DNA from: a virus
Direction: 5' to 3' (one strand)
Length of the DNA: 33,090 nucleotides
IMG/VR virus record: IMGVR_UViG_3300030519_000033
Coordinates: 1 to 33,090 of that record
How positions within the stretch are numbered: position 1 is the first letter of the stretch; each line of letters begins with the position of its first letter. Position numbers and translations under genes: made by a program. Under the pieces are notes generated by a model, which was given only the letters and a program-made list of their open reading frames with translations, had not been told where the DNA came from and searched no databases. Positions 13,417 to 32,147 of this stretch are shown one piece after another.

Positions 13417-15281
13417 TCCCCACGCTCGAATATCCGAAAAGCAAGGAGGCGGCGCTCGTGTGGACGCCGCACCCGGTCGTGGACCTGGTGGAGGGCGGCC
13501 GTTATCGCGCGCTGGAGGACACCGAAATCAAGGCGCTGCTGGCCGCCGGCACGCCGGGGCACGAGATCGAGGAGTATTGGCGCGAGCGCGAACAGCGCAT
13601 CCAGCGGTCCATTGATGATCCGTTGCGGCACGGCTTCGAGCTGCCGTTTTGGAATGACGTGCGGAAAATGCTGGCACGCAAGGATGAATTATTTGCGCTG
13701 GGGGGCAATGGTCCGGGCAAGACGGAGATCGGCGGCAAGCTGGTCTGTGAAAAATTATGCGAGGCCGGCGGCATGAAGGTTTTGTGTGTGGCCACCAACG
13801 ACGCGAGCAGCAAACAACTCCAGCAGGCCGGCGTCTATAAATATCTGCCCGTGACCGCGCGCGGGGTGAATGAGCGGCTGGGACCGCGCCGCCGGGACAC
13901 CGTGAAGAACATCACGTTTTCCCAAAAGAACGGTTTCACGGAAAGCACGTTCGTGCTGCCCAACCGTTCACAGTGCTGGTTCAAAACCGTGGAGCAATAC
14001 CTGCGCGACTCCAACTCGTTTGAAGGACCGGAGTATGACCTGGTCTGGATTGACGAGCCGGCCCCGATTGCGCTCATCACGACGTTGAGTTTCCGCATCG
14101 CCAAACGGCGCGGGAAATTCTTTTTCACGTTCACGGCCGTCAACGGGTTTGATGCGACCTGCGCCATGGTGTTGAACGGCGCGCGGGTTTTGCAAAGCCT
14201 GCCGATGAACTGGCAGTGGTCCCTGAACGCGGACCCCAACGACGGCCTGGACCCGGGCGGCGCGCCGGAGCCACGCATCAAAATCCCGGAGCTGGCGCTG
14301 GACGAGGTGCAGGTGAAGGACCTGCCCGCCGGCCACATGCCTTACCTGATGCAACCGCTCAACCCGGCGCAAGGCGTGATTTTCCTGTGGACGCAATGGA
14401 ATCGCTTTCTGCCGCGCTCGCGCGAAAACCCGGCCGTGCCGGCGGTGTTCGACAAGGTGGTGCGGAAAAGCAAGGGCACCGTGCGGATGCGCCTCTTTGG
14501 CTGGGCCGAGAAATTGAGCGGCTGCCAGTTTCCCGCGTTCAACCCGAACGTGCATGTCATCCCGCACCTGAAAATTGTGGAGATGCTTTATCCCTTGGAC
14601 GGGCAGGGCGGCCGGCTCACGACCTTCATGGCCTGCGACCCGGCGACGGCGCGCTCGTATTTCATGCTGTGGCTGGGCGTGGACAAGCTGGGCCGCAAAT
14701 TCATTTTCGACGAGTCGCCCCGGATGGAGGAAGGCGAGTGGGTGGGGGATGACGGCCAGCGCGGGGATGGCACGCGCTTGTATGGTGGCCGGGGCACGGA
14801 TTTTTACAAGGGTTACATCCGCGTGCGCGAACATGAACACGGCGTCACCGCCACGCGCCGTTTCGGCGATCCGCGCGCCTTCGCCACGGAGGCCGCCGCC
14901 AAGGATGGCGGCCGTTCGCTCCTCGAATTATTTCGGGACTGCGCGGAGGATGAGCCGGACCCGCTGCTGGCCGCCATGTTTTTCGAGCCGGCCAAGGTGA
15001 TGCGCTCGCTCCTGGCCGAGGCCGCGAGCGGGAGCCTGGACAAGATCAACGACGCCTTTGCCTACGATTCGGAAAAGGAAATCACGGTCGAGAATGAGCC
15101 GCACCTGTATGTGAGCGACCGCTGCCAGAATTTAATTCACGCGCTGCTCAACTGGGACCCGGCGCAAGGGGACAAGTCGCCCTGGAAGGACCCGGTGGAC
15201 GTGCTGCGGTATCTCTTCGGCGAGCCGCTGACGTATGTGGACCCCACCGTGCCGGAAATTGTGACGGGCAAAGGGTGGTGA
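13413..15281 (+). CDS. terL: Terminase large subunit
   Basis: This 622-residue DNA-packaging motor has an ATPase domain with Walker A-like LGGNGPGKTE (residues 96-105) and Walker B YDLVWIDEP (208-216). The nuclease domain is suggested by TTFMACDPATARSYFMLWLG, with the conserved Asp, and the late DPVDVLRYLFG motif. It cuts and pumps concatemeric DNA through the portal encoded next. ATG 13413 overlaps the previous stop. Length is at the upper end for large terminases (450-620 aa). Whether packaging is cos or headful cannot be told. Confidence 0.92.
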   Translation: MIPTLEYPKSKEAALVWTPHPVVDLVEGGRYRALEDTEIKALLAAGTPGHEIEEYWREREQRIQRSIDDPLRHGFELPFWNDVRKMLARKDELFALGGNGPGKTEIGGKLVCEKLCEAGGMKVLCVATNDASSKQLQQAGVYKYLPVTARGVNERLGPRRRDTVKNITFSQKNGFTESTFVLPNRSQCWFKTVEQYLRDSNSFEGPEYDLVWIDEPAPIALITTLSFRIAKRRGKFFFTFTAVNGFDATCAMVLNGARVLQSLPMNWQWSLNADPNDGLDPGGAPEPRIKIPELALDEVQVKDLPAGHMPYLMQPLNPAQGVIFLWTQWNRFLPRSRENPAVPAVFDKVVRKSKGTVRMRLFGWAEKLSGCQFPAFNPNVHVIPHLKIVEMLYPLDGQGGRLTTFMACDPATARSYFMLWLGVDKLGRKFIFDESPRMEEGEWVGDDGQRGDGTRLYGGRGTDFYKGYIRVREHEHGVTATRRFGDPRAFATEAAAKDGGRSLLELFRDCAEDEPDPLLAAMFFEPAKVMRSLLAEAASGSLDKINDAFAYDSEKEITVENEPHLYVSDRCQNLIHALLNWDPAQGDKSPWKDPVDVLRYLFGEPLTYVDPTVPEIVTGKGW

Positions 15282-15313
15282 TGAAACAAACTTAAAACAA
15301 ACCAAACAAAATT

Positions 15314-17572: not shown

Positions 17573-17931
17573 AAACCAAACCTGACTCCATTTGGAACCG
17601 GCTCATCAAACGCCTGCTGCCGGCAGATTATCACGAGCGGCCGGCCCCGGACCTGGACCAAAACTCTAGCACGCTGGCGCGGCTCCAGGAGAATGACCCG
17701 GTTTATCGCGCGGTGATGGACCATGCGTTCGTCCAGTTTGCCAACGCGCTCAACGAGGTGCTGGACCCGACCCAACCGCGCGACAAACGGGTCAGCGCGG
17801 CCGACAGTGCCATCGGCCTGCGGCAGTTCATCGAAGACATTGAATATCGGCGGGCGGGTTGGAATGAGGAGCGCGTAAAACAGCTGCGCGCCGAAGCGGC
17901 GGCCCGGCGGCCAAAGGAAACGAGCCAATGA
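17569..17931 (+). CDS. Hypothetical protein after portal
   Basis: This 120-residue soluble helical protein (NRLIKRLLPADYHERPAPDL, then VYRAVMDHAFVQFANALNEV and IGLRQFIEDIEYRRAGWNEE) is coupled to portal by ATGA and to the next gene by ATGA. The position suggests a small head-assembly or packaging accessory; no family is recognised. Confidence 0.6.
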   Translation: MKTKPDSIWNRLIKRLLPADYHERPAPDLDQNSSTLARLQENDPVYRAVMDHAFVQFANALNEVLDPTQPRDKRVSAADSAIGLRQFIEDIEYRRAGWNEERVKQLRAEAAARRPKETSQ

Positions 17932-18143
17932 AGGAACAGCTTTTGCTCCCGATCAAACTGGGCGACGCGGACTTGATGCCGGTGGGCAAACACGCCGGCA
18001 CGCGCATGGCGGACGTGCCGGTGGATTACCTCCATTACCTGTGGCGACACGGCAAGAAAGATTTACCCGGCTGCCCGGTCGCGGACTACATCCGGCGCAA
18101 TCTGCCGGCGTTCAAAATAAAATACTCCGCCGGGATTTGGTGA
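17928..18143 (+). CDS. DUF3820 family protein
   Basis: This 71-residue protein has the DUF3820 signature: MPVGKHAGTRMADVPVDYLH (residues 17-36), then YLW and L..YIRRNLPAFK, comparable to MPFGKYKGk.l.dvP..YL.wl......l...i...L. The family is found in phages and bacteria and has no firmly assigned biochemical role. It overlaps its neighbours at both ends (ATGA upstream, TGATG downstream). Confidence 0.75.
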   Translation: MKEQLLLPIKLGDADLMPVGKHAGTRMADVPVDYLHYLWRHGKKDLPGCPVADYIRRNLPAFKIKYSAGIW

Positions 18144-18379
18144 TGCCGGACATGACTACCGAGCTTGAAAATTCCGTGCTGGCCGTGCGCACGCTGCCCC
18201 CGCGCCAGCGCGAAATGCTGTGTTTCCTGGGCCAAGGTTTCCAGAAAAAGGAAATCTCGGAGCGTTTGGGGATCAGCCTCAAAACGGTGGAACATCATTG
18301 TGAACGTCTCTATCTCCACCTGGCCATTCACAATTCCCGCGAGGCGGTCCGCATCGCCTTCCACGCCCAACTGGTCTAA
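18143..18379 (+). CDS. Stand-alone LuxR/GerE-type HTH protein
   Basis: This 78-residue protein is almost only a LuxR_C HTH: LPPRQREMLCFLGQGFQKKE, ISERLGISLKTVEHHCERLY, then LHIAIHNSREAVRIA-like helix (residues 17-70). Conserved features such as L..RE.E.L....G...KeIa..L.iS..TV..H are present. No receiver or ligand domain. It would bind DNA, perhaps to time late or capsid gene expression; a terminator and structured leader follow directly. The ATG overlaps the previous TGA (TGATG). Confidence 0.85.
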   Translation: MPDMTTELENSVLAVRTLPPRQREMLCFLGQGFQKKEISERLGISLKTVEHHCERLYLHLAIHNSREAVRIAFHAQLV

Positions 18380-18381
18380 AC

Positions 18382-18417
18382 CGGCAATGGGGTTTTTACC
18401 CCCGTTGCCGTTTCTTC
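18382..18417 (+). terminator. Intrinsic terminator after LuxR-type gene
   Basis: CGGCAA (18382-18387) and GGGG (18389-18392) pair with CCCC (18400-18403) and TTGCCG (18405-18410) around a T-rich loop, followed by TTTCTT. It separates the portal transcript from the scaffold/capsid genes. Confidence 0.65.
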
Positions 18418-18552
18418 GTTCGAGACTATAACTGTAAGCCGAACCGTTTCACGCGCACCGCAGTCGCGTAAAACCCCGGGCGGAAACTTCCGCCGGGTGC
18501 TTCTCTGCGAGTCCCCCAACGCGACGCACTGATTGCGTCCCTAAACAAAATC
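18418..18552 (+). promoter_or_regulatory. Structured leader upstream of scaffold and capsid genes
   Basis: The leader has two hairpins: CCCGGGCGGAA with TTCCGCCGGG (18475-18497, one bulged G) and GACGCA-CTGAT-TGCGTC (18523-18539). It ends in CCCTAAACAAAATC before ATG 18553. No clear -35/-10 pair is seen. It could be an mRNA-stabilising or regulatory 5' leader for the most highly expressed genes. Confidence 0.4.
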
Positions 18553-19791
18553 ATGGCTGAACCAACCATAAAACCAAACGGGGTCGTGAATCCCCCGGTC
18601 GCGGCGAGTCCTGCGGCAAGAATCACTGTCCCCACTGGTCCCGTCTCGGCGGCGGCCGGCGAAGCGATCCTGACTGATGCGCTCACAAATGCCTTTTTGG
18701 AGCCAGGCACGCGGGGAGAACAACCAAAAGGCGAGGCGGGTAAACCCGCCCCGACCGGAACAGCAGCCGGCGCGGCTGCCCCGGACCCGGAAAATAAAAA
18801 TTTAGCGCCGGAACACAATGCGGAACAGGAAGAGGCGGAACTGGCGGCCCGCGCCCAAGCCAATGGCGTGACGGTCGCGGAACAGTCGCAGGCGGAAACG
18901 GATGAACTGGCGCGGCTCGAAGCGCGGGCGGCCGAACTGGGTCAGACGGTGGAACAGGTGGCGGCGGGCGAAGAGGCCGAGGCCACGGCCAAGGCCGGCA
19001 AGACTTACACGCAGGAACAGGTGGAGGGTTTGATTCTCAAACGGGTGAAGAACCTGGGGGAGGAAAACGCGGAGTTGAAACGGCAACTGGCGGCCAAGCC
19101 GGTGGCGGCCGGACCCGGGGCGGGCCGGTTGGACAACGTGAACGACGTGGCCAAGCTGGCGGAAATTTCCGCCGAGGCGCGGGAAGGTCTGAAGTTCACG
19201 GGCAAGATGATCCGGCAACTCGCGTATGCGCCGCAGGCGGTCGCGGAAAAGTTTCAGGAAATGGCGGCGAACAACCCGGCGGTGGCGGCGCGGTTTCGGA
19301 ACGAGGCCGGCGAGGATGATTTCAGCGTGGCGCGCATGTCGGCGGTGCTGGAGGAGTCCGAAGAAAATCTGACCGCGCAGGCGGAGGCCGTGCCGGTGCG
19401 CCAGGCGTATCTGGAAACCTACGAAAAATCGCACGCCGTGGCCTTGAAAGTTCACCCGTGGCTGGGTGACGCGGAGGATGAACGGACGATCCAGTTTCGC
19501 AACATCGAGCGGGCGCTGCCCGGCGTGAAGGCGGCGGCGAGCTGGGAATACTGGGTGGCCTGCGCGGTGGAACGGCACCTGGAGCTGACGCAGGCGGCGG
19601 CGAAGGCGGCCCCGGCCAATGGCAAAGGGAAGTTCATCCCCAAAGTGGTGTTTCCGAAATCGGCGGCGCGCGGCGGCAACCGGCCGGCGGTGAACGGCGA
19701 CCAGCGCAAGGCGGCGCTGGACAACCTGCGCAAAACCGGCTCGGAGAAAGACCTGCAAGTGGCATTGGAAACGATCCTGGGACAGCGGTGA
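18553..19791 (+). CDS. Putative capsid scaffolding protein
   Basis: This 412-residue, acidic, Ala/Glu-rich protein sits directly before the major capsid gene. The first 90 residues are Pro/Ala/Gly-rich and disordered. A central part (residues 95-180) is coiled-coil-like (AELAARAQANGVTVAEQSQA, later EEAEATAKAGKTYTQEQVEG). The C-terminal part is helical with a basic end (GKGKFIPKVVFPKSAARGGN), suited to bind capsid subunits. Composition and location are those of scaffolds; there is no sequence signature that proves it. No protease domain seen. Confidence 0.7.
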   Translation: MAEPTIKPNGVVNPPVAASPAARITVPTGPVSAAAGEAILTDALTNAFLEPGTRGEQPKGEAGKPAPTGTAAGAAAPDPENKNLAPEHNAEQEEAELAARAQANGVTVAEQSQAETDELARLEARAAELGQTVEQVAAGEEAEATAKAGKTYTQEQVEGLILKRVKNLGEENAELKRQLAAKPVAAGPGAGRLDNVNDVAKLAEISAEAREGLKFTGKMIRQLAYAPQAVAEKFQEMAANNPAVAARFRNEAGEDDFSVARMSAVLEESEENLTAQAEAVPVRQAYLETYEKSHAVALKVHPWLGDAEDERTIQFRNIERALPGVKAAASWEYWVACAVERHLELTQAAAKAAPANGKGKFIPKVVFPKSAARGGNRPAVNGDQRKAALDNLRKTGSEKDLQVALETILGQR

Positions 19792-19837
19792 AAGTGCATT
19801 GTGCGACGGATAACGCGGTTTATGGAAAAGGCATTTT

Positions 19838-20953
19838 ATGGCAATCACAGCAGAACCAAATTTACGGCAGGCGAGCAGCGCCTATCGGGACCTCGCGTTT
19901 GAGGACCTGATGGACGTGCTGGACCTGTTCGACCCGGCGGCAACGCCGATGTCAACCCTTTGCAAGACGGAGGCAAAACTGGACAACGTCACGACCGACT
20001 GGGAAGTGGACAAATACGGGGTGCCGAATGGCGCTTTGGGACCGGGCGACGCGTATGCGTTGCAGGCGGGCGAAATCGCGGACGTGACCACCACGCGCCG
20101 CAAGATGGGCAACGGCGGGCAGCTTTTCCGGCGCGGGTTCGGGTCCGGCTACATCGCCGAGCGCGTGCCCCGGCTGCCGGGCACGGGCAAGGGCATCCTC
20201 GCCTCCGCCTACACGAAATTTCTCATCATGCTCAAGCAGGACATCGAGGTTGGCCTCTCCAGCTTTGACCAGACGTATAACACCGACACGGGCGGTTCGA
20301 CCGGCGGCACCATGGCGGGATTGCGGATGATGATTGACCCGGCCAACGCCTACGCGAACGCGAACGCGATGGTCCCCGGCAAGCCGACGGACATCCACAG
20401 CGCCCCGGCGGCCGCGTGCGTGACGGGTTCCCTCGCCGCCAACTTCAACCTGTCGCTCATCAAGACGATGCTGTCCGCCCTGTTTGATAACGTGCAGCGC
20501 GACCGGGAATACTGGTGCCTGTGCAACAAGGGCCTTAACCAGGCGTTTTCGGGTCTGACCGATCCGCAGGCCCTCGGCGGCAACGTGGCCAACTCGACCC
20601 CGGCGCAACAGCGCATTTTCACCAAGGACCAGGACGACGAGACGTTCAAGCAGATCATCACGATTGTGCGGACGGACTTCGGGACCTTGAAGAAGATGCT
20701 GGCTCCGCTGATGGGCACGACGGCCTCGGACATCAACGGCGTGCCGACGGCGGTGCGCGCCAACCGCGTGTTCACCGGCCAGCCGAACTACGGTTACATC
20801 ATCCCGGCGGAGAAGCTCGCCAAAAGGTGGGGCTTCCCGATTGACACGGATGAACTCGGACACGACGGCTCGGGCGTCACCCGGATGCTCTTCACCTATC
20901 TGACCCTCGTGGTCTATAACCCCCAGGGCTTCGGCTTCATGGCGTTGACCTAA
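19838..20953 (+). CDS. Major capsid protein (SU10/DUF5309-like)
   Basis: This is a 371-residue protein. The N-terminal region (SAYRDLAFEDLMDVLDLFDP, AATPMSTLCKTEAKLDNVTT, DWEVDKYG) and the GEIADVTTTRRKMGNGGQLF, RRGFGSGYIAERVP stretch match the SU10-type/DUF5309 capsid pattern (HK97 fold). It forms the icosahedral shell. An AAAAGG-type ribosome site lies eight bases upstream of ATG 19838. It follows scaffold by 46 bases, as in many phages. Codon use is that of the surrounding high-GC genes. Confidence 0.8.
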   Translation: MAITAEPNLRQASSAYRDLAFEDLMDVLDLFDPAATPMSTLCKTEAKLDNVTTDWEVDKYGVPNGALGPGDAYALQAGEIADVTTTRRKMGNGGQLFRRGFGSGYIAERVPRLPGTGKGILASAYTKFLIMLKQDIEVGLSSFDQTYNTDTGGSTGGTMAGLRMMIDPANAYANANAMVPGKPTDIHSAPAAACVTGSLAANFNLSLIKTMLSALFDNVQRDREYWCLCNKGLNQAFSGLTDPQALGGNVANSTPAQQRIFTKDQDDETFKQIITIVRTDFGTLKKMLAPLMGTTASDINGVPTAVRANRVFTGQPNYGYIIPAEKLAKRWGFPIDTDELGHDGSGVTRMLFTYLTLVVYNPQGFGFMALT

Positions 20954-21914: not shown

Positions 21915-22418
21915 ATGAAACTGAACAAAATTCTTACCGGCGTCGCGGCCCTCGGGCTGGCGATGATCACCCTCACCGCCAGCGCGCAGGAACGCTTCCG
22001 CTATATTTCGCTGACCAACACCGCGATCCCCACCGCCTATGCGCCCGTGGGCACGAACACGAGTTCACTGACGAACAGCCAGGTGTATGCGCCGGCGACG
22101 GCCACCGTCTTCTTCATTGGCGATTTGCAGAACACGCCCGTGCAGTGGGAGCAGGTGGTGACTTCGCTCACGAACGGCGCGTCCACTTCGACGTGCGGTC
22201 TGGACCTTTCGCCGGACGGCACCTACTGGATCAGCAACGCCGTGATGGCCTCGGTGGGCGGGCAGGGGTATGGCACCAACCTGTTCACGACTTATTTCCC
22301 GTTAAGCAACGGCACGAACGTCTTTTCGGGCAACAGTTATGCGCGCTGGGCCTATGGCAACGCCGGCCAGTGGACGAACATGACGTGGCTCGTCAACCGC
22401 CTCATTAACTACCGTTGA
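21915..22418 (+). CDS. Secreted-type virion/tail-module protein with signal peptide
   Basis: This is a 167-residue protein. MKLNKILTGVAALGLAMITL followed by TASA-QE is a textbook Sec signal peptide with an A-x-A cleavage site at about residue 25. The mature part is Thr/Asn/Ser-rich beta-type (SLTNTAIPTAYAPVGTNTSS; STCGLDLSPDGTYW), as in surface or fibre proteins. The ATG follows AACACAAAAACAAAAT, a Shine-Dalgarno-less leader, and a longer frame would only add a short polar stretch. Its position between capsid and fibre genes implies a virion or late role. Export is inferred from the N-terminus. Confidence 0.7.
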   Translation: MKLNKILTGVAALGLAMITLTASAQERFRYISLTNTAIPTAYAPVGTNTSSLTNSQVYAPATATVFFIGDLQNTPVQWEQVVTSLTNGASTSTCGLDLSPDGTYWISNAVMASVGGQGYGTNLFTTYFPLSNGTNVFSGNSYARWAYGNAGQWTNMTWLVNRLINYR

Positions 22419-22452
22419 GGTCCGGGCGGCCGGCCACAACCCCAAAGGCACC

Positions 22453-22830
22453 ATGTATTCAATCTCATACCCGGCGGATGAACATTACAAGAGCGCGGCG
22501 GCGGAGAATGGCGTGCAGGTGATCGCCAAACCCCGCAACCTGGTCAACCTCTATGTGCTGAACGTGAGCGCCGCCACGGTGTATCTGCTGGTGAGCGATG
22601 ATGCGGCCGGACCGCATGGCCTCGCGGTCAATAAGGGGACCCTTTACCCGATTCTGGCCGCGCCGGGTTATGTGGCCATTGCCACGCACGGCGGGGACCA
22701 GTTCTACAAGGGCATTTACATCGGGGCCTACAGCACGGCGGCCCTGGCACTGGCCGGCGGCGCGCCGGACGGCGGGGCGAGCCTGCTCATCAAGGCGGAC
22801 TTTACGGCCAGCAAAATCTTCCCGCAATGA
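22453..22830 (+). CDS. Hypothetical tail-module protein
   Basis: This 125-residue, beta-rich protein has no signal peptide (MYSISYPADEHYKSAAAENG). It contains VNLYVLNVSAATVYLLVSDD and YKGIYIGAYSTAALA, resembling small beta-sandwich phage adaptor or fibre proteins. Its TGA overlaps the ATG of the fibre gene. Upstream context is CCCCAAAGGCACC. No family recognised. Confidence 0.6.
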   Translation: MYSISYPADEHYKSAAAENGVQVIAKPRNLVNLYVLNVSAATVYLLVSDDAAGPHGLAVNKGTLYPILAAPGYVAIATHGGDQFYKGIYIGAYSTAALALAGGAPDGGASLLIKADFTASKIFPQ

Positions 22831-24512
22831 AAACCCTGCTGTCATGGCTCTTGGCGCTGGTGTGGCCCACGGTTTGCCTGGGGCAGGCCGGCGGCGGCGT
22901 CTCCAGCGGGCCGACCACGGGCGGCGGCGGGGGTTCTCAAGGGTCTATTTCTAATGCTCTTATTTCACAAGCACTAGGGAATGGTATTTTAACTAATAGC
23001 GCTGGCAACTACTCCATCCCCGCGCTCAACACAAACTACATGTTCTGCCAAATCGGAAATGCTCCGGTGCAGACGCTTGGCTACACCGCAACATTCACCG
23101 AATGGACGAACGGGACAGCTAGCGGTGTGATTGTGACTGTGGGTGGCAACATCCTGAGCAACAGTGTGACGATTTTCACGAACACAACCGGCTCGCCAGT
23201 CGGTCATAATTTCAGTTCTGCGAACAGCACTTACAATGGAATCACCGCCTACACCTGGTTCGCTGGCACGACTCCGCAGATGGCGGATACGAATGATGTT
23301 ACGTTGCTTACAGCCGCGCAGTTGGCGAATGTGAATAATGCGGTTCAATTAGTTGGGTCAAACTCCTATGTTGCTGGCGGGTTTCAAGACTTGTTAAGCT
23401 CTAACGCATCTTCAAGTTTTGGCCACTATAAATATCAAAACCCACAAATACTATCTGCATTAACCATAGCAACAAATGCCCCGACATCATTTAGCTCTAT
23501 CTCCGTTCAGTCTGGGTGGAATCCGCCAGCAGGTGCAACTGGTGATGCCATCGGTATTGAAGGTTCCGTATGGCCATACGGAACAAATAACGCTCCATCG
23601 GCTTCCGCTGAGGCGTTTAAGGCGACTGCGGTATTACTTTCTGGCACAAACTTTAATACGCTAACCGGCTACAAAACTGAATGCGGAAATGAAACCGGTC
23701 AGTGGGGAACGCCGGGAGGCTTATTGGCTACCTGCTGTGGGTTATGGGTAGGTTCTCCGTTATCTGATACCAACAACTCTATTTCTGGATATGGTCCAAT
23801 TACAACTACGATCGGAGTTAATATTGATGCGCAATCAGGGCCGGGTATTGGCGCCGCTTACGGTATTTGCCAAAACGGCGCAAGCGACCATAATGTGTTT
23901 GCAGGTTCGACGCAAGTGAATAGCGGACTTAGTGTTTCAAACGGACTAACTGTGAATAGCGGAAATGTTGGAATTTCAACTGGCAACCTGACCTTAAGTG
24001 CAGGAACAGCTTCATGCTTTACTTCTTTTTTTGTAAACTCTGCGTCACAAGGGTCTGTTGGTATAATCAACTCTGGAAATGGTTGGGACGAGGATTTTTA
24101 TAATCCTTCTGGTAATCTTCACTGGTATCTTGCTAATAAAAACAGCGGTGGGACAGTTGATGGTAATTTCTATATTCGTGAGTATGCCGGGGCTTTTATT
24201 GACGCATTTAAGTTTGAAACTAATTCAACTTTTACAGCGCTTGGCGCGATTGTAGCCACTACTGGATTTAGCAGTCTTGCCACTTCGACAGCAATGTCCA
24301 CTACTGCCAATGGTTGCACAAACACCACGTCAATGGTTCAGATTGCCTATATCACGGCAGCCACCGGAGCAACCTTGAAAGACAATGCTGGCAACACGGA
24401 GTTTTCAAGTGTGACCATTGCGGCATTTACTCCGGTGCGGATTCAGGTTGGCGGCAAGTTCACTGGAACGGCAATAACCTATGCGGCGGGTGCCGCAGCT
24501 CATGCTTGGTAA
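22827..24512 (+). CDS. Putative tail fibre / receptor-binding protein with signal peptide and AT-rich mature domain
   Basis: This is a 561-residue protein. MKTLLSWLLALVWPTVCLGQ is a signal-peptide-like N-terminus, followed by a Gly/Ser linker (GGGVSS, GGGGGSQGS). The rest is a long Asn/Ser/Thr/Gly-rich beta region with repetitive LTVNSGNVGISTGNLTLSAG near residues 375-395, typical of trimeric fibre shafts, and an Ala/Gly-rich C-terminus (AAGAAAHAW). From about 22937 to the stop the DNA is far AT-richer than both flanks. The start is fixed by an ATGA overlap. It is likely the host-range determinant; enzymatic domains are not evident. Confidence 0.7.
   Translation: MKTLLSWLLALVWPTVCLGQAGGGVSSGPTTGGGGGSQGSISNALISQALGNGILTNSAGNYSIPALNTNYMFCQIGNAPVQTLGYTATFTEWTNGTASGVIVTVGGNILSNSVTIFTNTTGSPVGHNFSSANSTYNGITAYTWFAGTTPQMADTNDVTLLTAAQLANVNNAVQLVGSNSYVAGGFQDLLSSNASSSFGHYKYQNPQILSALTIATNAPTSFSSISVQSGWNPPAGATGDAIGIEGSVWPYGTNNAPSASAEAFKATAVLLSGTNFNTLTGYKTECGNETGQWGTPGGLLATCCGLWVGSPLSDTNNSISGYGPITTTIGVNIDAQSGPGIGAAYGICQNGASDHNVFAGSTQVNSGLSVSNGLTVNSGNVGISTGNLTLSAGTASCFTSFFVNSASQGSVGIINSGNGWDEDFYNPSGNLHWYLANKNSGGTVDGNFYIREYAGAFIDAFKFETNSTFTALGAIVATTGFSSLATSTAMSTTANGCTNTTSMVQIAYITAATGATLKDNAGNTEFSSVTIAAFTPVRIQVGGKFTGTAITYAAGAAAHAW
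22937..24512 (+). other. AT-rich segment, likely recently exchanged fibre domain
   Basis: By hand count, bases 23401-23460 have 21 G/C of 60, while 22741-22800 just upstream have 48 of 60. The change is abrupt after the GGGGG linker codons near 22935 and reverts at the end of the gene (about 24490-24512). The signal peptide and linker lie outside it, so only the mature domain appears foreign. Confidence 0.75.
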
Positions 24513-24513
24513 A

Positions 24514-24804
24514 ATGACCCTCCGCCTCACCATCTTGTTGCTGTGCCTCGGCCTGCCGGCCTTGGGGCAGACGCCCCGCATGGTGGACAATCCGCCCAGT
24601 GTGCCGATGGCGCTGCCGGTCGCGCCGATTACTTATCACCTGGAGTGGACCGTGAACAACGGCTTTCCGCCCGACCATCTGTTTCCCACTTATATTTATC
24701 ACGCTTACAGCGTCAGCGGCCTGTGGACGCTGTGGGGGGTTTCCTTCACCAACAACTGTCTCCTGCCGACCGTGAGCGCCCAGGAGTATTTCCGGGTTTA
24801 TTAA
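24514..24804 (+). CDS. Small secreted protein with C-terminal Verrucomicrobiota-type FYRV-like domain
   Basis: This is a 96-residue protein. MTLRLTILLLCLGLPALGQT is a signal peptide (cleavage after ALG). The mature part ends in LWTLWGVSFTNNCLLPTVSAQEYFRVY, matching the W..l.TN......FYRV terminal domain also seen in the protein at 68-697. It starts one base after the fibre stop (TAA-A-ATG), and the next gene begins the same way. It may be a fibre-associated or chaperone-like partner. The function is not known. Confidence 0.65.
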   Translation: MTLRLTILLLCLGLPALGQTPRMVDNPPSVPMALPVAPITYHLEWTVNNGFPPDHLFPTYIYHAYSVSGLWTLWGVSFTNNCLLPTVSAQEYFRVY

Positions 24805-24805
24805 A

Positions 24806-25240
24806 ATGACCACCGACCCCAACACCCTCGCCCCGACGATCATCCAGTTTGGCCAGATCATCGGCGAATTCTTGATTGGCCTGATCGTGGCCTTTGTGGC
24901 GTGGAAACAGAAGCGCAACACCGACGCCATCAAGGAAAACACCGCCATCACCACCGCAACCAGCTTGACCGCCAACAGCACGGCGGCCGTCGTGAAGGAC
25001 ATCCACACCCTCTCCAACAGCGCCATGGGCGCGCAGCTCAAAGGCGCGATTGAAGTTGCCGAACAGGTGGCCGTGCTCGCGCACCGGCTGGCGGAGAGCG
25101 GCGCGGCCGGCGACGTGGCGGTGGCCGCGGCGGCCGACTTGAAGGTGGCGGCCAACAAGGTGCTCTACCAGGAGCATCAAATTCAGCAAGCCAAGGTGGA
25201 CGCCACCAAGACCACGGCCCCAGTCGCTCCCACCGTATGA
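24806..25240 (+). CDS. Single-span membrane protein, holin-like candidate
   Basis: This 144-residue protein has one clear membrane helix at residues 13-33 (IQFGQIIGEFLIGLIVAFVA). A long Ala/Thr-rich amphipathic helical C-terminal part follows (residues 40-130), with a Pro-rich tail. Similar one-helix proteins with cytosolic coils serve as holins or holin-like regulators in several phages, and it lies among other small membrane proteins and a lipase. That is a contextual inference. It is ATGA-coupled to the next gene. Confidence 0.55.
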   Translation: MTTDPNTLAPTIIQFGQIIGEFLIGLIVAFVAWKQKRNTDAIKENTAITTATSLTANSTAAVVKDIHTLSNSAMGAQLKGAIEVAEQVAVLAHRLAESGAAGDVAVAAAADLKVAANKVLYQEHQIQQAKVDATKTTAPVAPTV

Positions 25241-25608
25241 ACCTCCTGGACCAAATTTTTGATTTGCTGCGCCGGATGGCGGGGCAACACGCGGACAACA
25301 CAAAACTGATACTTAACCGTATCGCAGAAATGGAAAGGAAAGTTATGGCACTCGAAACGACACTCGCAGCGCAGATCACGGACCTCACGACCGAGGTGCA
25401 GAATGAAACCACGGTGGAGCAATCCGCCGTCACGTTGCTCAACGGCATCCCGGCGCTGATCGCGGCGGCCATTGCCAGCGCGACGCAGGCCGGCGCAACC
25501 CCCGCCCAACTGGCGGCCCTCAACGACCTGCAAACCACGCTCGCGGCGAATTCCGCGTCCCTGGCGGCAGCGGTGACGGCGAACACCCCGGCGGCGCCGG
25601 CGGCCTGA
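25237..25608 (+). CDS. Coiled-coil hypothetical protein
   Basis: This 123-residue helical protein starts MNLLDQIFDLLRRMAGQHAD; a coiled coil with ILNRIAEMERKVMALETTLA follows, then TTVEQSAVTLLNGIPALIAA and an Ala/Thr-rich low-complexity end. Such proteins are frequent near phage tail/lysis genes; no function is known. The ATG overlaps the upstream stop. A perfect hairpin follows it. Confidence 0.6.
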   Translation: MNLLDQIFDLLRRMAGQHADNTKLILNRIAEMERKVMALETTLAAQITDLTTEVQNETTVEQSAVTLLNGIPALIAAAIASATQAGATPAQLAALNDLQTTLAANSASLAAAVTANTPAAPAA

Positions 25609-25622
25609 ACAACCAACGGTTT

Positions 25623-25650
25623 CCCCGTCCGGGCCAATGCCCGGACGGGG
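25623..25650 (+). other. Perfect 12-bp hairpin between tail-module genes
   Basis: CCCCGTCCGGGC (25623-25634), loop CAAT, GCCCGGACGGGG (25639-25650). No U-tract follows (CGGCCCCCTTAAAA), so it is more likely an RNA-stability or attenuating element than a full terminator. Confidence 0.55.
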
Positions 25651-25666
25651 CGGCCCCCTTAAAACT

Positions 25667-25918
25667 ATGAATCCAATTCTGGCAGCCACGGCGATTTTTT
25701 CCGGCGGCGGTGATGGCGGCGGTGATGCGGTGCATCAACTGCTTTACCTGGTGGTGATCGGCATTGTGCTGGGCATCATTTATTACCTCGTGCAAATCGC
25801 GCCGTTTTTGCCGGCCCTTTTCAAGACGATCCTCGGCTGGCTCATCATCCTCTTCGGCGCGATTATTTTAATCAACGTGCTGCTGGGCCTGGTGGGTCAT
25901 CCGCTATTCGTATTTTGA
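25667..25918 (+). CDS. Two-span small membrane protein (Thivi_2564-like), holin candidate
   Basis: This 83-residue protein has a short Gly/Asp-rich N-terminus and two membrane helices (AVHQLLYLVVIGIVLGIIYY and FKTILGWLIILFGAIILINV), separated by a PFLPALF turn. The pattern resembles the Thivi_2564 membrane family I know from phages and bacteria. Size and topology are also those of a class II holin. The ATG follows CTTAAAACT, after the 12-bp hairpin. Confidence 0.6.
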   Translation: MNPILAATAIFSGGGDGGGDAVHQLLYLVVIGIVLGIIYYLVQIAPFLPALFKTILGWLIILFGAIILINVLLGLVGHPLFVF

Positions 25919-25958
25919 AACCAACCAACAACCAACCACCATTAAACAAACAAAACTT

Positions 25959-26678
25959 ATGATTGATTATCCCCAACTGATTGCCTCGGGCAGTTACATC
26001 GGCATCGAGGCGGCCACGGCGGCCATCCTCCAGAAGAATCCGGGCATGTTGCCCGGCCTCACCCAGCTTGCGGCGGACCTGCCGGCGATTGCCAATGGCA
26101 CCATCCTCCCGGCGGAAGAGGCGGCGGACCTCGCGTCCATCGTCCAGCAACTGCAAGCCAGCCAGGGCCAGAACGGCGTCATCATTGCCGCCCTGCTCGA
26201 CGGCACGGTGACCCAGGTGCAGTCCAATGTGAACCATTCGGCTCCCTCCATCCTGACCGGCGTGGCCAGCTCGTATGTGCTGATGGCCGCGCACGCCATC
26301 GCGGCCGGTTGCAAAGTGGTGGCCTCGGCGCTGCCCGTGCCAAGCAAAATCAACGTGACCCCGCCCGCGCCAGGCGTGCCCGTGCCCAACTCGCCATATG
26401 TGCCCGGCCCGAACTCGCCCGGCGTGGCCGGTCCCAACCCGCCGTATCCGAACACAGGCGCGCAAGTCCCGGACCGGAACGCCGGCACGTCGGTCGGAAA
26501 CCCGTTCCCCGCGAACCCGCCGGTGGCCAACCCGAACGAGCCGACCCCGCCGATCCCGTCGGCCCAGGCCGAGCTGATGTCGCCAAAACCACAGGTGCCC
26601 GCGCCCCCGACGTCCGATCTGGCGGCCGGCGACCAGTTGGCGACCCCGGCGGAACTCGCGGCGCGTAAACGGAAATAA
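25959..26678 (+). CDS. Hypothetical protein with Pro-rich C-terminal half
   Basis: This is a 239-residue protein. The N-terminal 125 residues are helical and hydrophobic in places (GIEAATAAILQKNPGMLPGL; VASSYVLMAAHAIAAGCK). Residues 130-225 form a Pro/Asn/Gly repeat region (PGVPVPNSPYVPGPNSPGVA, then PNPPYPNTG), likely extended or disordered. The ATG follows an A/C-only leader (ATTAAACAAACAAAACTT) without a Shine-Dalgarno. Could be a virion linker or wall-spanning protein; not recognised. Confidence 0.6.
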   Translation: MIDYPQLIASGSYIGIEAATAAILQKNPGMLPGLTQLAADLPAIANGTILPAEEAADLASIVQQLQASQGQNGVIIAALLDGTVTQVQSNVNHSAPSILTGVASSYVLMAAHAIAAGCKVVASALPVPSKINVTPPAPGVPVPNSPYVPGPNSPGVAGPNPPYPNTGAQVPDRNAGTSVGNPFPANPPVANPNEPTPPIPSAQAELMSPKPQVPAPPTSDLAAGDQLATPAELAARKRK

Positions 26679-26684
26679 CCGATC

Positions 26685-26780
26685 ATGCTCACCATCGGCT
26701 TTTCCGTCATGTGCTGCGCCGTAAGTTTCTTATGCGTGGTGCTGGCGGTGAAGCTGCTGGTGGAGATGCGCCGCAAATAA
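26685..26780 (+). CDS. 31-residue single-span membrane peptide
   Basis: ATG 26685 opens 31 codons: MLTIGFSVMCCAVSFLCVVL, AVKLLVEMRRK, ending TAA 26780. It is one hydrophobic helix with a basic end, in the N-out orientation expected from positive-inside. It fills the gap between two genes, and the lipase ATG comes two bases after its stop. Small pinholin- or spanin-like peptides look like this. Existence is supported by packing and composition only. Confidence 0.45.
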   Translation: MLTIGFSVMCCAVSFLCVVLAVKLLVEMRRK

Positions 26781-26782
26781 TC

Positions 26783-27496
26783 ATGGCTACCATTGGCACG
26801 GCCGGTCCGGTCAGCGGAATCGTTTTCCCGCTGCCGGTGGACTATGCCAAAATGTGCCAGCGGATTTACCTGACGGATGAAGGCTGGACGCATTACTGGG
26901 AGCTGGGTGACATTGTTTGCGGCCACCAGTTGACCGGCGGGGTGGACTACCTGGTGTTTCGGGGATCGGTGACGCTGGTGGATTGGATGCGGGACATCAA
27001 CGCGCTGGCGGTATGGCATCCCAAACTTGGTTTCGTTCATGCCGGCTTCGCGCAGGGGTTGGACTCGCTTTACGCGGTGATCGCACCGTTGATGGGCCGG
27101 AACATTGTGATCCTCGGCCATTCACTGGGCGCGGCGCGCGCGTGCGACGTGGCCGGACTCTTTGCCTATGACGCGGCGGCGGCGGGCGTGGCTTGCCCGG
27201 TAAAGATGCTCTGCACCTTCGGCCAGCCCAAGCCGGGCTTTGCCAACCTCGCGCGCATCATTACCAAAAGCGGGATGACCCATGTGAGCTACCGCAACCG
27301 GAACGACCCGGTGCCGTTGGTGCCGCTCTCTTTCTGGCCGTTCCTGGACTATGTCCACACGGAAGCATGGATCGCGTTAGACGCCGCCCCGGCCATAGAC
27401 AATCTGGAGCCGCTGCGGGACCATCACATCAACCTCTATATCCAGGGCCTGACGCCGGTAACCATCTCCGAGGTCATCCCCGCTGGCGTGCCATGA
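26783..27496 (+). CDS. Class 3 (alpha/beta-hydrolase) lipase
   Basis: This 237-residue protein has lipase class 3 layout: YLVFRGSVTLVDWMRDI (residues 56-72, oxyanion/strand region), the nucleophile elbow LGHSLGAARA with Ser114 (111-120), CTFGQPKPGF (144-153), then RNRNDPVPLVP with Asp175, and DHHINLY with His214/His215. The presumed triad is Ser114-Asp175-His215, and all parts are present. Substrate would be an ester such as phospholipid or other lipid. No signal peptide. It sits after membrane peptides and before tail-tube genes, so either lysis or virion-borne entry is possible. I prefer ATG 26783 since earlier codons overlap the 31-residue gene. Confidence 0.8.
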   Translation: MATIGTAGPVSGIVFPLPVDYAKMCQRIYLTDEGWTHYWELGDIVCGHQLTGGVDYLVFRGSVTLVDWMRDINALAVWHPKLGFVHAGFAQGLDSLYAVIAPLMGRNIVILGHSLGAARACDVAGLFAYDAAAAGVACPVKMLCTFGQPKPGFANLARIITKSGMTHVSYRNRNDPVPLVPLSFWPFLDYVHTEAWIALDAAPAIDNLEPLRDHHINLYIQGLTPVTISEVIPAGVP

Positions 27497-28155
27497 AGAC
27501 CACCACTTTTGGCGACGTGCTCAACCAGGCGGCGGAGCTGGCGCAACGCACGCGCGACAAAATCCCGATAAGCGAGCAGATCATGCTTCAGGGTTTTCTG
27601 GCGACGGAATTCGGGATGCTCGTCACCGCGCAATGCTGGCCGGAATTGATCCCGGATTTTTTGAACGTGGTGAACATCACGAACAACCAGTTTCCGATTG
27701 ACGAGAATAGCGCGGACCCGACCGTGCCGGAGATCGGGGACATTCTCGCCATCCTCTCGCAAAATCCGCATGTGACCGACCATTGGCGGCATGTGGCCTA
27801 CAGCGTGGGGGATGACGTGATTTATCTGGAGGACAGTTGCGCCAGTGTGTGGGTGGAATACATGCTGCCGTATCCGGGCGCGACCTTTCCCGACCTCGCG
27901 CCGGGGGTGATGACGCTCCCGAATTTTCTGGCGGCGACGCTGCCCCGCCGCTGGCGGAACCTGCTGGCGCACAAGACGGCCGCCCATCTCTATGGGGCCG
28001 ACAACAACGCGGCGGCGGCCGGCGTTCAGTTTGGCCTGGCCAACGCGGCGCTGGGGGCCGAGCTGATGCGTTTGCCGCCGGTGCCGGCCTGGCGCGGCTG
28101 CCACATGCCGCTGCCCAAACGCCGGCATTACGGGAGTCCGGTGATGTGGTTTTGA
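27493..28155 (+). CDS. Tail-tube A / head-tail adaptor-like protein
   Basis: This is a 220-residue soluble protein. An N-terminal helical part (FGDVLNQAAELAQRTRDKIP) is followed by Trp-rich segments, and the C-terminal RRWRNLLAHKTAAHLYGADN helix resembles the adaptor proteins of podoviruses (T7 gp11, P22 gp4 type). It is placed immediately before the large tail protein, as gp11 precedes gp12. The call rests on order and size, with weak sequence support. ATGA coupling with the lipase gene. Confidence 0.5.
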   Translation: MKTTTFGDVLNQAAELAQRTRDKIPISEQIMLQGFLATEFGMLVTAQCWPELIPDFLNVVNITNNQFPIDENSADPTVPEIGDILAILSQNPHVTDHWRHVAYSVGDDVIYLEDSCASVWVEYMLPYPGATFPDLAPGVMTLPNFLAATLPRRWRNLLAHKTAAHLYGADNNAAAAGVQFGLANAALGAELMRLPPVPAWRGCHMPLPKRRHYGSPVMWF

Positions 28156-28166
28156 AATGATGAATC

Positions 28167-30818
28167 GTGAACCGTTTAATTTTATTTCTATTTATGGCAC
28201 TGCTGGCTGCTAATGCGGAAGTGGTGAAGGATGAGGACCTGGCGTTCTACCGGGTGGACACGCGCACGCCGCCGCACGAGCTGGCCAAGGGCGTTTGTGC
28301 GGATGCCACCAACAAGCGGTTTGAGGACGGCCGGGCGTGGCCGCGTTTTGGGATCAGCTGCCAGCCGTGGGGACAGATTCCCGGCAACAACCTGATTCCC
28401 GCTGCGGCCGCGTGGCTGGACATTGAGGAAGGGGGCAACACTTACAACCTGGTGGGGCTGAACCCCGGCCAGACCTATGTGTTCCAGAACAACAGCACGC
28501 TGGTCATGAACCTTCAGGCCGAGGGCGGGAGCGCCGAGCAACAACTGGGCAATATCAATCCCGGCCAGTCCCTGACCTTCACGCTGCTCAACACGAACAA
28601 CACGCTGTTCATCACGGCCTATGAGGCCATCGGCGGACCGCAGCCGCCGCTGCCCAACCCGGTGGCCGCCTATGTTTCGGTGGCCCAAAACAACCCGATC
28701 AAAGTTTGCGGCTATGTGCGGTTCAACGATCCGCAATCCTTCGACACGACGGTCGTGCTGACCGATGACTGGCGCACGCTGGCGGGCGAGGACGGCGGGC
28801 GCGGCCGGGCGTGGCGCATCCAAAGCGGCAACGCGCCCATGGCCATCCCCATGAATGGGAATGACATTTACGGGGTGACGCGGCTGGTGGCCTGCTACAA
28901 CGGTTTGGTGATGCTGCGCCAGGACAATGAGCGCCATTACTTCCAGGGTCCGGCCGTGGCGGCGTCCAAAATCCAGCTCAACTGCGAGCCGGACTGGAAC
29001 ACGGGGGATCTGGTGTTCGTGTGGGGCGATGAGACGGTGAATTCCGCGTTCACGGCGGGGACCAGTCCGCCGGCCTTGAACACGACGGCCTTTGTGAAGA
29101 ACGAGGCCGGCAACGCCGTCTCGCTCTGGCAGGACGCGTCGCTGACGATCCAGCTCAATTTCACGGCGGCCCGGGGCCGGTTTTATCTGGAACGGCAGGC
29201 GACCAATCCCGGCTATTTTGGGAACGGCGCGTGGCCCTTGATCGCGCAGCCTTCGGTGGCGGGGGCGACCCTCTGGGAGGCGGGCTTCATCGGGGTGCCC
29301 GTGAATTTGCAGGTGACGGCGACGGCGGCGGCCACGGGCGTTTGGACGGTGCCCAACCACCGGCTGATCCCCGGCGATGCGGTGACCCTCTCCGGGATGC
29401 AGGCGGGCGACACGCCGGTCAACACCGTGCTCGGCCCGCCGGCCACGTTCTACTATGTGTATCCGCTGGGGGACCACACGTTTCAACTCTTCGACACGCA
29501 AAATGATGCGCTGCTGGCGGCGCAGCCGGGCAATACGGTGCTGACGGGTTTGCAGGCGATTCACCTGGTGGCGGCGGGGCCGGCGTCCGTGCCGCTCTTC
29601 ACCAAGGCCGGGGCGAGCGGCCTGCCGATGCCGCCGGCCCGCGAGGGTTACTACATGGACAACGGCCAGCTCGTGCTGGTCAACGGCAACAACAACATTT
29701 TAATTTCCGACCCGCTGGACCCGCTGCACTATACGCCGATGCAGAGCGGCTTCACGGCGAACCTGGGCGAGAGCGATCCCGTGGTGGCGGTGGGGGAAAT
29801 CAGCTCCTCCAACACGCTCATCATCGTGAAGCAAAACAGCGTGATGGCGCTTTACAATTTCAGCCAGGGAGCCGGCTCCTGGAATTTGCAGAGCGTGACG
29901 CGCGAGTATGGGTGCGTGGCGCCGCTCTCCCTGCGGCAATGGGGGAGCAGCCTCATGTTCCTTTCGCGGCGCGGGCTGGACAGCGTGCAATACACGGCCT
30001 TCGGCGTGATCATCGGCACGGAAAAGGCGGTGAGTTTTGACATGTATAAATATCACAATTTGGTGGATTGGAATTATGCGAGCCTGGCCGTGGTGGAGAC
30101 GTGGAACGACCGGCTCTTCCTCGCCTACCCGATGAAGGGGCAGGTGCCGGGCCAGCAGGTGAACAACGCGGTCCTGTCCTTGAATTTTTTGAACAGCGAC
30201 GCCCAGCAGGGGACCTACGGCTGGGAGGGCAACTGGACGGGCGCGGCCCTGGGAGTGTTCGGCTTTGCCCGGCTGACCCTCTACGGCGAGGAGCGGCTGA
30301 CCTTCTGCAATTACGCGGCGCAAGTGTGCTGGCTGGATGACGGCTGGTTTGACCTGGGCCGGCCGATTGCGGACTCCCTGACCACGCGGCGCTACACGGG
30401 CGGGAACAACCAGCGCAAAATCTGGCAGCAGGCGCTGGTGAACTGGGACAGCAACGGCTCGACCCTCACGGTGTCGGCGGTGGCCCCGGGGTGGAATGAG
30501 GTTTATGCGCTGACGCCGCCGGGCGGTTTGCACTATGACCGCACGCAATATGTGGCGGGCGAGGGTCCGGCCTACAACCCGGCGACGCAGGTGCCGCCCT
30601 TCAACAATCCCTTCCGGGAGGATTACACCCTGGCCGGCGCGGGCGAACTGATTGGCGGCCAGCCGGACATCCACCAGAACATCCCGGAAACTTTTCGGAT
30701 GCGCGTGGATGACTGGGGCGTGCAGCTGGTGATTGCCAATGCGGCGGGCAGCACGCGGCTGGTGAGCGTGCTGGTGGCGGGCTTTGCCGGGCCGGGCGCG
30801 GCGACGCGCATCGTATAG
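28167..30818 (+). CDS. Large tail/nozzle-like virion protein with signal-peptide-like N-terminus
   Basis: This 883-residue protein starts at GTG 28167. MNRLILFLFMALLAANA-EVV is a short but typical Sec signal sequence. The body resembles podoviral tail-nozzle or T7 gp12-type proteins: DTRTPPHELAKGVCADATNK (about residues 31-50) recalls their start; in the middle come REYGCVAPLSLRQWGSSLMF and LSRRGLDSVQYTAFG, a common beta-propeller segment. A DHTF-containing insert (LIPGDAVTLSGMQAG) looks like an inserted beta domain. It would close the tail tube. Identification by pattern; an alternative frame at 28160 is short. Confidence 0.6.
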   Translation: MNRLILFLFMALLAANAEVVKDEDLAFYRVDTRTPPHELAKGVCADATNKRFEDGRAWPRFGISCQPWGQIPGNNLIPAAAAWLDIEEGGNTYNLVGLNPGQTYVFQNNSTLVMNLQAEGGSAEQQLGNINPGQSLTFTLLNTNNTLFITAYEAIGGPQPPLPNPVAAYVSVAQNNPIKVCGYVRFNDPQSFDTTVVLTDDWRTLAGEDGGRGRAWRIQSGNAPMAIPMNGNDIYGVTRLVACYNGLVMLRQDNERHYFQGPAVAASKIQLNCEPDWNTGDLVFVWGDETVNSAFTAGTSPPALNTTAFVKNEAGNAVSLWQDASLTIQLNFTAARGRFYLERQATNPGYFGNGAWPLIAQPSVAGATLWEAGFIGVPVNLQVTATAAATGVWTVPNHRLIPGDAVTLSGMQAGDTPVNTVLGPPATFYYVYPLGDHTFQLFDTQNDALLAAQPGNTVLTGLQAIHLVAAGPASVPLFTKAGASGLPMPPAREGYYMDNGQLVLVNGNNNILISDPLDPLHYTPMQSGFTANLGESDPVVAVGEISSSNTLIIVKQNSVMALYNFSQGAGSWNLQSVTREYGCVAPLSLRQWGSSLMFLSRRGLDSVQYTAFGVIIGTEKAVSFDMYKYHNLVDWNYASLAVVETWNDRLFLAYPMKGQVPGQQVNNAVLSLNFLNSDAQQGTYGWEGNWTGAALGVFGFARLTLYGEERLTFCNYAAQVCWLDDGWFDLGRPIADSLTTRRYTGGNNQRKIWQQALVNWDSNGSTLTVSAVAPGWNEVYALTPPGGLHYDRTQYVAGEGPAYNPATQVPPFNNPFREDYTLAGAGELIGGQPDIHQNIPETFRMRVDDWGVQLVIANAAGSTRLVSVLVAGFAGPGAATRIV

Positions 30819-30824
30819 GATTGT

Positions 30825-32147
30825 ATGAAAAATCAGCTGATCATTTTATTTTTGCTGCTGGCGGGGTTGGCGCGCGCGTCCCTCACGGCGGTGGTGCAGC
30901 CGGGTTTTCAATTTCCACTGGACGGCAGCATCGCGCCGACCTTCCAATATCTGAACGAGCTGGCCACGCCGACGGTGGCGATCTACGGGACCATCGGGGG
31001 CGCGAACACGCTGACGCCGGGCAGCGTGACCAGCGTGAGCTTCTCCAGCTCGGTCTGGGACAACCTTTCCATCGGCCTGAACGGCAACACGCCGGGCGGT
31101 TTGCAGGTGCTCGCCGCCGGGGTGTATGGCAACGGCCTGACCAACAGCGGCATTTCGACGCTGGCGGTGAACATTGACGGCACGCTGCAATTCACGCGCT
31201 ACACGAATGGCGCGGGCGGAATTTACGAGCTGGTGGGCGCGAGTCCAAGCTGGGCCTACAACACGGTGTGGCTGCCGGCGGGCATCTGGCCGACCAACCA
31301 GTTTCCCAACGCCTGGGGTTACACCAACACGCAAACCATCACGAATTATTTTGTGACCGGCAACGGCACGCCGACCCTGACCCTGACGGACACGGTGCCC
31401 ATCATTGCCAACCAGCAGGGCGGCAGCAACACGACGGCGAATTTAAACGCGGTGAATGGCGTTTTGAACGCGGCCAACAGCCTGCTCGTGGCGACCTTGA
31501 CGCCCAACGCCAACACGGGCACGAATGACGCCATCAGCTATGTGCAACTGGTGGACGGGAACGGGACGAACTATCCCATGACGGTGACGTATGCGTTCAG
31601 CGTGACCAATGTGTCCCTCGCAAGCCTCGCCACCAACCTCGCGTGGCGGATCAACGGCCAGCCCGGCACGCCGAAATTCACGGCGAGCGTGGTCAACGGC
31701 ACAAACGTGCAGATTTACGAACCGCTGGCCTACTGGCCCCGCAGCGGGGCAACCGTGGGCGTCAATTTCACGACGCGCAGCAACCTTAACTTTGTGGTGG
31801 CCAGTGCCAACAACACGCCGCTCATGGCGAACGACCTGCCGGCGGGCACGAACTCCAACATGGTGGGCGGCAACTCCACCCAGTTTATTTCCGTGACGGG
31901 CCTGGCGAGCGGCGGCACCCCGCCCTACACCTTCACCTGGACGGTGGGCGTGACCTCCAACAGCGGCGTGGGGGTCAACAGCCCTTATGTTTCGTCCTCA
32001 TCCTACAACACCATGGTTTTTGGCACGGGCTTGAATCCCTCGGCGCACGGGGCCACCTGCACCGACTATGCCGCGCTGACGGTGTCGGACATGAGCGGCC
32101 AGGTTTATGTGGTGGCGCATACCAGCTATACCTTTACCTACCCATGA
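30825..32147 (+). CDS. Putative tail fibre or tail-associated protein with signal peptide
   Basis: This is a 440-residue protein. MKNQLIILFLLLAGLARA-SL is a clear signal sequence. The mature protein is Asn/Thr/Gly-rich and beta-type, with an IPlikely-exposed PTFQYLNELATPTVAIYGTI start and a late Ig-like ASGGTPPYTFTWTVGVTSNS (about residues 363-382) similar to PKD/Ig-like domains of surface proteins. An AGGA site is five bases before ATG 30825. GC content is like its neighbours, unlike the fibre at 22827. Fibre or baseplate protein inferred from context. Confidence 0.6.
   Translation: MKNQLIILFLLLAGLARASLTAVVQPGFQFPLDGSIAPTFQYLNELATPTVAIYGTIGGANTLTPGSVTSVSFSSSVWDNLSIGLNGNTPGGLQVLAAGVYGNGLTNSGISTLAVNIDGTLQFTRYTNGAGGIYELVGASPSWAYNTVWLPAGIWPTNQFPNAWGYTNTQTITNYFVTGNGTPTLTLTDTVPIIANQQGGSNTTANLNAVNGVLNAANSLLVATLTPNANTGTNDAISYVQLVDGNGTNYPMTVTYAFSVTNVSLASLATNLAWRINGQPGTPKFTASVVNGTNVQIYEPLAYWPRSGATVGVNFTTRSNLNFVVASANNTPLMANDLPAGTNSNMVGGNSTQFISVTGLASGGTPPYTFTWTVGVTSNSGVGVNSPYVSSSSYNTMVFGTGLNPSAHGATCTDYAALTVSDMSGQVYVVAHTSYTFTYP

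Follow-up and report, generated by a model that had tools for sequence, protein, structure and literature searches.

Assembly of tailed-phage virions is regarded as an entirely cytoplasmic process. In phage P22, the adaptor joins the filled head first, followed by gp10, the needle and the tailspikes. Sec signals on phage proteins are familiar from the coat proteins of filamentous phages, SAR endolysins and spanin lipoproteins. We know of no tailed phage with a part built on the far side of a membrane. A search of the full-text literature, limited to open-access papers and hence weak evidence, found no report of tailed phages whose nozzle or fibre proteins bear signal peptides (SPs), and the target proteins of phage diversity-generating retroelements were described as lacking the signal peptides of the bacterial ones (PMC6199706). 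The podovirus lineage analyzed here carries predicted SPs on such distal tail proteins.

The DNA analyzed here, referred to in its entirety as the window, comprises the 33,090 bases of an IMG/VR virus record and has the gene content of a podovirus. Genes for terminase, portal, scaffold and an SU10-type major capsid protein, all without an SP, occupy 13413..20953 on the plus strand; the large terminase matches Pfam Terminase_6N and the capsid protein PF17236 (E 1e-22). The capsid genes are followed by a variable region, a presumed head-tail adaptor at 27493, the nozzle at 28167, the fibre at 30825 and a conserved GNAT-like gene at 32144. The presumed adaptor (27493..28155, plus strand, 220 aa, no SP) was assigned by position and size, as a conserved gene of 200-300 aa precedes the nozzle in relatives; it has no family match, and PHROGs and PDB profiles gave no recognition. 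Immediately ahead of the presumed adaptor, and within the tail module, is a gene for a class 3 lipase (26783-27496; PF01764, E 3e-12; PHROG esterase/lipase). Between portal and scaffold, a gene for a small LuxR/GerE-type HTH protein was found (18143-18379), and two relatives, G007 and G008, have similar small HTH-like ORFs in that position. The best GTDB relatives of the RadC-like protein of the window (6130-6624, minus strand) come almost all from Verrucomicrobiota, many of them labelled Pedosphaera, Limisphaerales or subdivision 3, a clue that the lineage probably infects Verrucomicrobiota (Pedosphaerales/Limisphaerales-like hosts). Terminases 100% identical to that of the window are encoded by five further IMG/VR contigs (L002-L006), and the window phage thus recurs in several metagenomes.

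N-termini were scored with our own SP scorer, which combines n-region charge, 9-residue hydropathy and a cleavage matrix from -6 to +2, with a threshold of 4.5. The scorer was trained on 32 E. coli SPs; these score 6-14 with all cleavage sites correct, as a training set and not as an independent test. A preliminary description of the window had reported five genes whose products begin with K/R residues, a hydrophobic core and a small-x-small site. All five were recovered with these Sec/SPase I features, scoring 8.4 (21915), 5.7 (22827), 6.9 (24514), 5.7 (28167) and 6.2 (30825). Terminase, portal, scaffold and major capsid protein do lack such N-termini, as the description had stated, and together with the presumed adaptor, the lipase and the GNAT-like protein they score 1.1 or below. 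When the first 60 residues were shuffled 2000 times, the observed score was reached 0 (21915), 4 (22827), 0 (24514), 2 (28167) and 15 (30825) times, and about 1-2.5% of spurious ORFs from the same genomes score above 4.5. Among 100 proteins encoded in the virion-gene regions of T7, P22, SU10, crAss001, C75C1 and a Manatee Spring podovirus, none reaches the threshold. Across six genomes of the lineage, an ATG-started SP-like N-terminus is present in 22 of 217 plus-strand genes; 15 of these encode nozzle, fibre or appendage-region proteins and seven encode lipoproteins or other membrane-type or accessory proteins, with no head, packaging, adaptor or ejection gene among them.

Two further statements of the preliminary description stood in part. 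It had considered the starts so constrained that mis-assignment was unlikely, and for four genes they are indeed firm and well constrained: that of 22827 overlaps the preceding stop (ATGA), those of 24514 and 30825 lie 1 nt and 6 nt past it, and that of 21915 lies 22 nt past it behind an A-rich leader. For the nozzle the statement was too strong, since 28167 begins with GTG, 11 nt past the preceding stop, and an in-frame ATG at 28194 would give MALLAANAEVVKDED and drop most of the hydrophobic core. It had also assigned all five genes to the tail module, which agrees with the predicted structure of 28167, is supported for 30825 and can be extended to 22827 by analogy; 21915 and 24514 have no Pfam or PHROG match and no homology to tail proteins.

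The 167-aa product of 21915 (21915..22418, plus strand) starts with MKLNKILTGVAALGLAMITLTASA^QE, with predicted cleavage after residue 24 (TASA^QE), and its homologues in G007 and G008 have an SP too. Gene 22827 (22827..24512, plus strand) encodes a 561-aa fibre-like protein starting with MKTLLSWLLALVWPTVCLG^QA, with predicted cleavage at CLG^QAGGGVSSGP; the mature N-terminus of its family, GQxxGGGVSSGP, is conserved in G007 and G008. In both families the relatives that carry the gene have SP-like N-termini, some of them below threshold. Although 22827 has no family match, its counterparts in relatives are PKD, lectin-like and beta-helix proteins with weak tail or tail-spike PHROG matches, and by analogy it may be a fibre-like tail part. 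GC content falls to 46-49% within this gene (23000-24500) against about 60-65% around it, which suggests that its central and C-terminal part was recently acquired. The small 96-aa product of gene 24514 (24514..24804, plus strand) starts with MTLRLTILLLCLGLPALG^QT, with predicted cleavage at PALG^QT, and may be a secreted accessory protein instead of a tail part. It shares a C-terminal motif with the protein encoded at 68-697 (SPDLVSWT..FTN...FYRV; SGLWTLWGVSFTN...EYFRVY), presumably one of secreted Verrucomicrobiota proteins; the latter protein has a long hydrophobic segment at its start.

The 883-aa product of 28167 (28167..30818, plus strand) was modelled with AlphaFold2 from 17 sequences (pLDDT 74.7). 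Foldseek matched the model to the nozzle chains of cyanophage A4, SU10, T7, P22, crAss001 and others (E 1e-15 to 1e-8), and the modelled fold is the beta-propeller of nozzles, of the P22 gp10/T7 gp12 type; on this model the protein is a podophage tail nozzle. The nozzles of relatives gave PHROG head-closure Hc2/Hc3 matches. Read from the GTG, its N-terminus is MNRLILFLFMALLAANA^EV, with predicted cleavage at LAANA^EV. Every SP-bearing nozzle has an in-frame ATG inside the SP. In four of the five (window, at 28194, G006, G007 and G008) this codon aligns with the Met that starts the SP-less G001 nozzle, a possible trace of an ancestral start or of initiation at two sites. Cys content, examined as a sign of periplasmic folding, does not differ between SP-bearing and SP-less nozzles. 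We consider it probable that the nozzle SP is translated.

The fibre gene 30825 (30825..32147, plus strand) encodes 440 aa starting with MKNQLIILFLLLAGLARA^SL, with predicted cleavage at LARA^SLTAVVQPG. Its identity as a tail fibre is supported by its place directly after the nozzle and by an N-terminal domain, LTAxVxPGY...LNxL...P..IxGT, that it has in common with SP-less fibres following the nozzle in a sister clade; the AlphaFold model of the fibre is poor (pLDDT 43). An SP or SP-like N-terminus occurs in this family in seven of eight genomes, in eight proteins (window, G004, two in G006, G008, L047, L048 and L050); the fibre of G001 has none, and the gene is cut off in G007. Two of the eight proteins score below threshold, that of L047 with 2.2 and that of G008 with -2.5, the latter owing to a long n-region, and some members could start without the SP at TTG or GTG codons. 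The two G006 genes are a tandem duplication (L049:8607-9536 and 9556-10461), both copies being SP-like. Cleavage is predicted at the conserved LTATVxPGY or no more than a few residues from it, and it is at this SP/mature junction that the initiator Met of the SP-less homologues falls (MPLFVTVTPG or MALSIQLIPG). From the junction onward the family is homologous to the SP-less fibres (hhalign probability 95.6, E 1e-8). The fibre SPs are very probably genuine and translated.

Relatives were collected through alignments. The terminase alignment found the near-complete relatives G001, G004 (with its near-copy G005), G006, G007 and G008, and the nozzle alignment found 80 loci, whereas nozzle and adaptor as single queries against viral contigs found no relatives; searching genome contigs with the terminase revealed no prophage relatives. 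Eight related IMG/VR phages (G001, G004, G006, G007, G008, L047, L048 and L050) were taken as the lineage set. Within it, the head proteins, terminase, presumed adaptor and ejection proteins never bear an SP. The nozzle has an SP-like N-terminus in five of the nine phages examined (window, G004, G006, G007 and G008, the record of G008 beginning inside the nozzle). The nozzles of G001, L047 and L050 lack it; L047 and L050 nevertheless have an SP-like fibre, and in G001 SPs are found on genes of the appendage region, not on nozzle or fibre. An apparent SP on the L048 nozzle was rejected as probably spurious, because its coding region overlaps the gene before it, and 10 nt past the stop of that gene lies a start that corresponds to that of L050. 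In the nozzle tree, SP-bearing rows lie within one group, mixed with SP-less ones, and the starred branches cannot be explained with fewer than two changes, a count that includes the doubtful L048. The hydrophobic cores cannot be aligned between genomes although the mature residues next to them are conserved, as is seen in secreted proteins.

A sister clade of seventy-odd members (L053-L124) has homologues of nozzle (about 28% identity) and fibre with their order unchanged; unlike in the window lineage, neither protein bears an SP in any untruncated member. Its untruncated nozzles start with MPDLPxI..DDGF-like sequences such as MPDLPQI...DDGF (best SP score 3.8), and its fibres with MPLFV(T/N)VTPGTT or nearly so (MPLFVTVTPGTT). 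The preliminary description had proposed comparison with related phages, and held that homologues lacking the N-terminal segment would speak against its view. The comparison shows a lineage-specific trait. Such homologues do exist, in the sister clade and, for the nozzle, in G001, L047 and L050; in the fibre family they mark the segment as an added, separable element. Its contrast between tail parts with export-type N-termini and head parts without them was borne out, since the trait recurs across the lineage and is absent from the sister clade and the six control phages. The trait is beyond chance, because the cores are unalignable, the fibre junction is fixed and no head, packaging, adaptor or ejection gene carries it.

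Short palindromic or tandem repeats lie directly 5′ of genes in several relatives, G004 (L030:2525-2660 and L030:5190-5310), G001 (L018:1847-1960), G008 and L050 (L050:5840-5930), and for three of them the predicted fold is a long hairpin (z -9.6, -5.4 and -4.0). The type of repeat differs from phage to phage, and no tested motif occurs in the window. The strongest hairpin is the long palindrome in the leader of the G004 nozzle, whose 3′ arm codes for the SP core; the fibre SP of G004 and the SPs of G008 also overlap tandem or palindromic repeats, as if repeats had served as raw material for SP cores in these two phages. Because their cores are partly repeat-coded, the G004 and G008 SPs are weaker instances. 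The window genes 28167 and 30825 have no such hairpins (z 0.4 and 1.1), indicating that their SPs were not derived from repeats.

We favor, with a probability of about 0.4, the reading that distal tail proteins of this lineage (the fibres, and the nozzle in five of nine phages) gained genuine Sec SPs, are exported and trimmed, and that the tail is completed at the inner membrane or at lysis. The predicted divide between proteins without and with an SP lies between the presumed adaptor and the nozzle. This matches the order of podophage assembly, and the simplest reading places all parts as far as the adaptor in the cytoplasm and has the more distal ones exported. The nozzle would be translated from its upstream start, the host Sec system would translocate nozzle and fibres, and signal peptidase I would trim them. 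Heads filled with DNA and capped by the adaptor would remain cytoplasmic and nozzle and fibres would collect in the periplasm, with tail completion taking place at the inner membrane or once holin/endolysin action breaches it. Completion of the tail outside the cytoplasm is, as judged from sequence, a tentative proposal, and the full picture of a two-compartment virion, with heads filled and capped in the cytoplasm, exported nozzle and fibres joining them in the periplasm or at the membrane breach, and completion coupled to lysis, is rather doubtful. Withdrawing nozzle protein from the cytoplasm should carry a high cost, which counts against export. Moreover, the SP-less nozzles of G001, L047 and L050 and the SP-less fibre of G001 indicate that the SP is dispensable and that nozzle export is not essential throughout the lineage.

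The in-frame ATG inside the nozzle SPs, with its match to the G001 start column in four of five, also fits a reading with two starts and two pools, in which a long SP form would be exported and act outside the virion, for example by blocking superinfection as a free receptor-binding protein, and a short cytoplasmic form would build virions. The short nozzle forms would be complete by homology; however, Met is common in signal peptides, and in the fibre family no in-frame ATG lies between SP and mature domain, with only rare TTG or GTG codons in some members, and such a division appears unlikely. The downstream ATG and the T-rich leader of the window nozzle could instead reflect an artefact of start choice, in which T-rich leaders or repeat arms before the true start are read as hydrophobic residues and no SP is made. 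The palindrome before the G004 nozzle and the overlap of the L048 segment with the preceding gene point the same way. An artefact leaves the conserved cleavage-site/mature junctions unexplained, however, and such reads are absent upstream of head genes, while the starts of 22827, 24514 and 30825 abut or overlap the preceding stop and 30825 has no hairpin; its probability is accordingly low.

The segments may alternatively stay uncleaved, either as inner-membrane anchors of tail precursors or as membrane-active virion N-termini that aid DNA entry. Their presence on nozzle and fibres, the parts that meet the envelope, would suit this role, but they are short and for the most part terminate in A-x-A/G sites, with Q as a frequent next residue, and G001, L047, L050 and the sister clade do without the nozzle segment. 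Known nozzles, moreover, have their N-terminus near the adaptor rather than at the tip. Ends resembling signal peptidase I sites make the membrane-active version less likely, and the chance of either version is slight. For 21915, 22827 and 24514, together with the PKD, lectin-like and beta-helix genes of relatives, capture of host secreted proteins that are released by the infected cell and are not tail parts would agree with the extracellular-type domains in relatives (PKD, Laminin_G_3 and a Pel9A-like beta helix), the low-GC stretch within 22827 and the Verrucomicrobiota-type C-termini of 24514 and the 68-697 protein. Capture leaves the nozzle and the 30825 family unexplained, as both are phage proteins with SP-less homologues in other phages, and we regard it as improbable.

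Should the tag work, part of a virus would be built beyond the membrane. Export of distal tail proteins, if true, would be relevant to the coordination of lysis with assembly, to a possible role of released fibres in superinfection and to the phages of Verrucomicrobiota, of which little is known. Homologous nozzles and fibres with and without an export signal form a natural experiment, the same machine in two predicted compartments.

In fold, size and position after the presumed adaptor, 28167 resembles P22 gp10, T7 gp12, the SU10 nozzle and the crAss001 muzzle. It differs from them in an SP-like N-terminal extension of about 17-30 residues, which none of the tested counterparts in T7, P22, SU10, crAss001 and C75C1 has. 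OpdA is a cytoplasmic oligopeptidase. The ejection protein gp7 of P22, from which host OpdA removes the N-terminal 20 aa (annotation, NC_002371), is alike in having a removable leader on a virion protein, but, unlike the window nozzle and fibres, gp7 scores no SP. Filamentous phage coats, SAR endolysins and spanins are alike in their use of the host Sec system; these are, however, membrane-assembled coats or lysis factors, whereas in the window lineage it is a tailed dsDNA phage whose nozzle and fibres bear the predicted tag.
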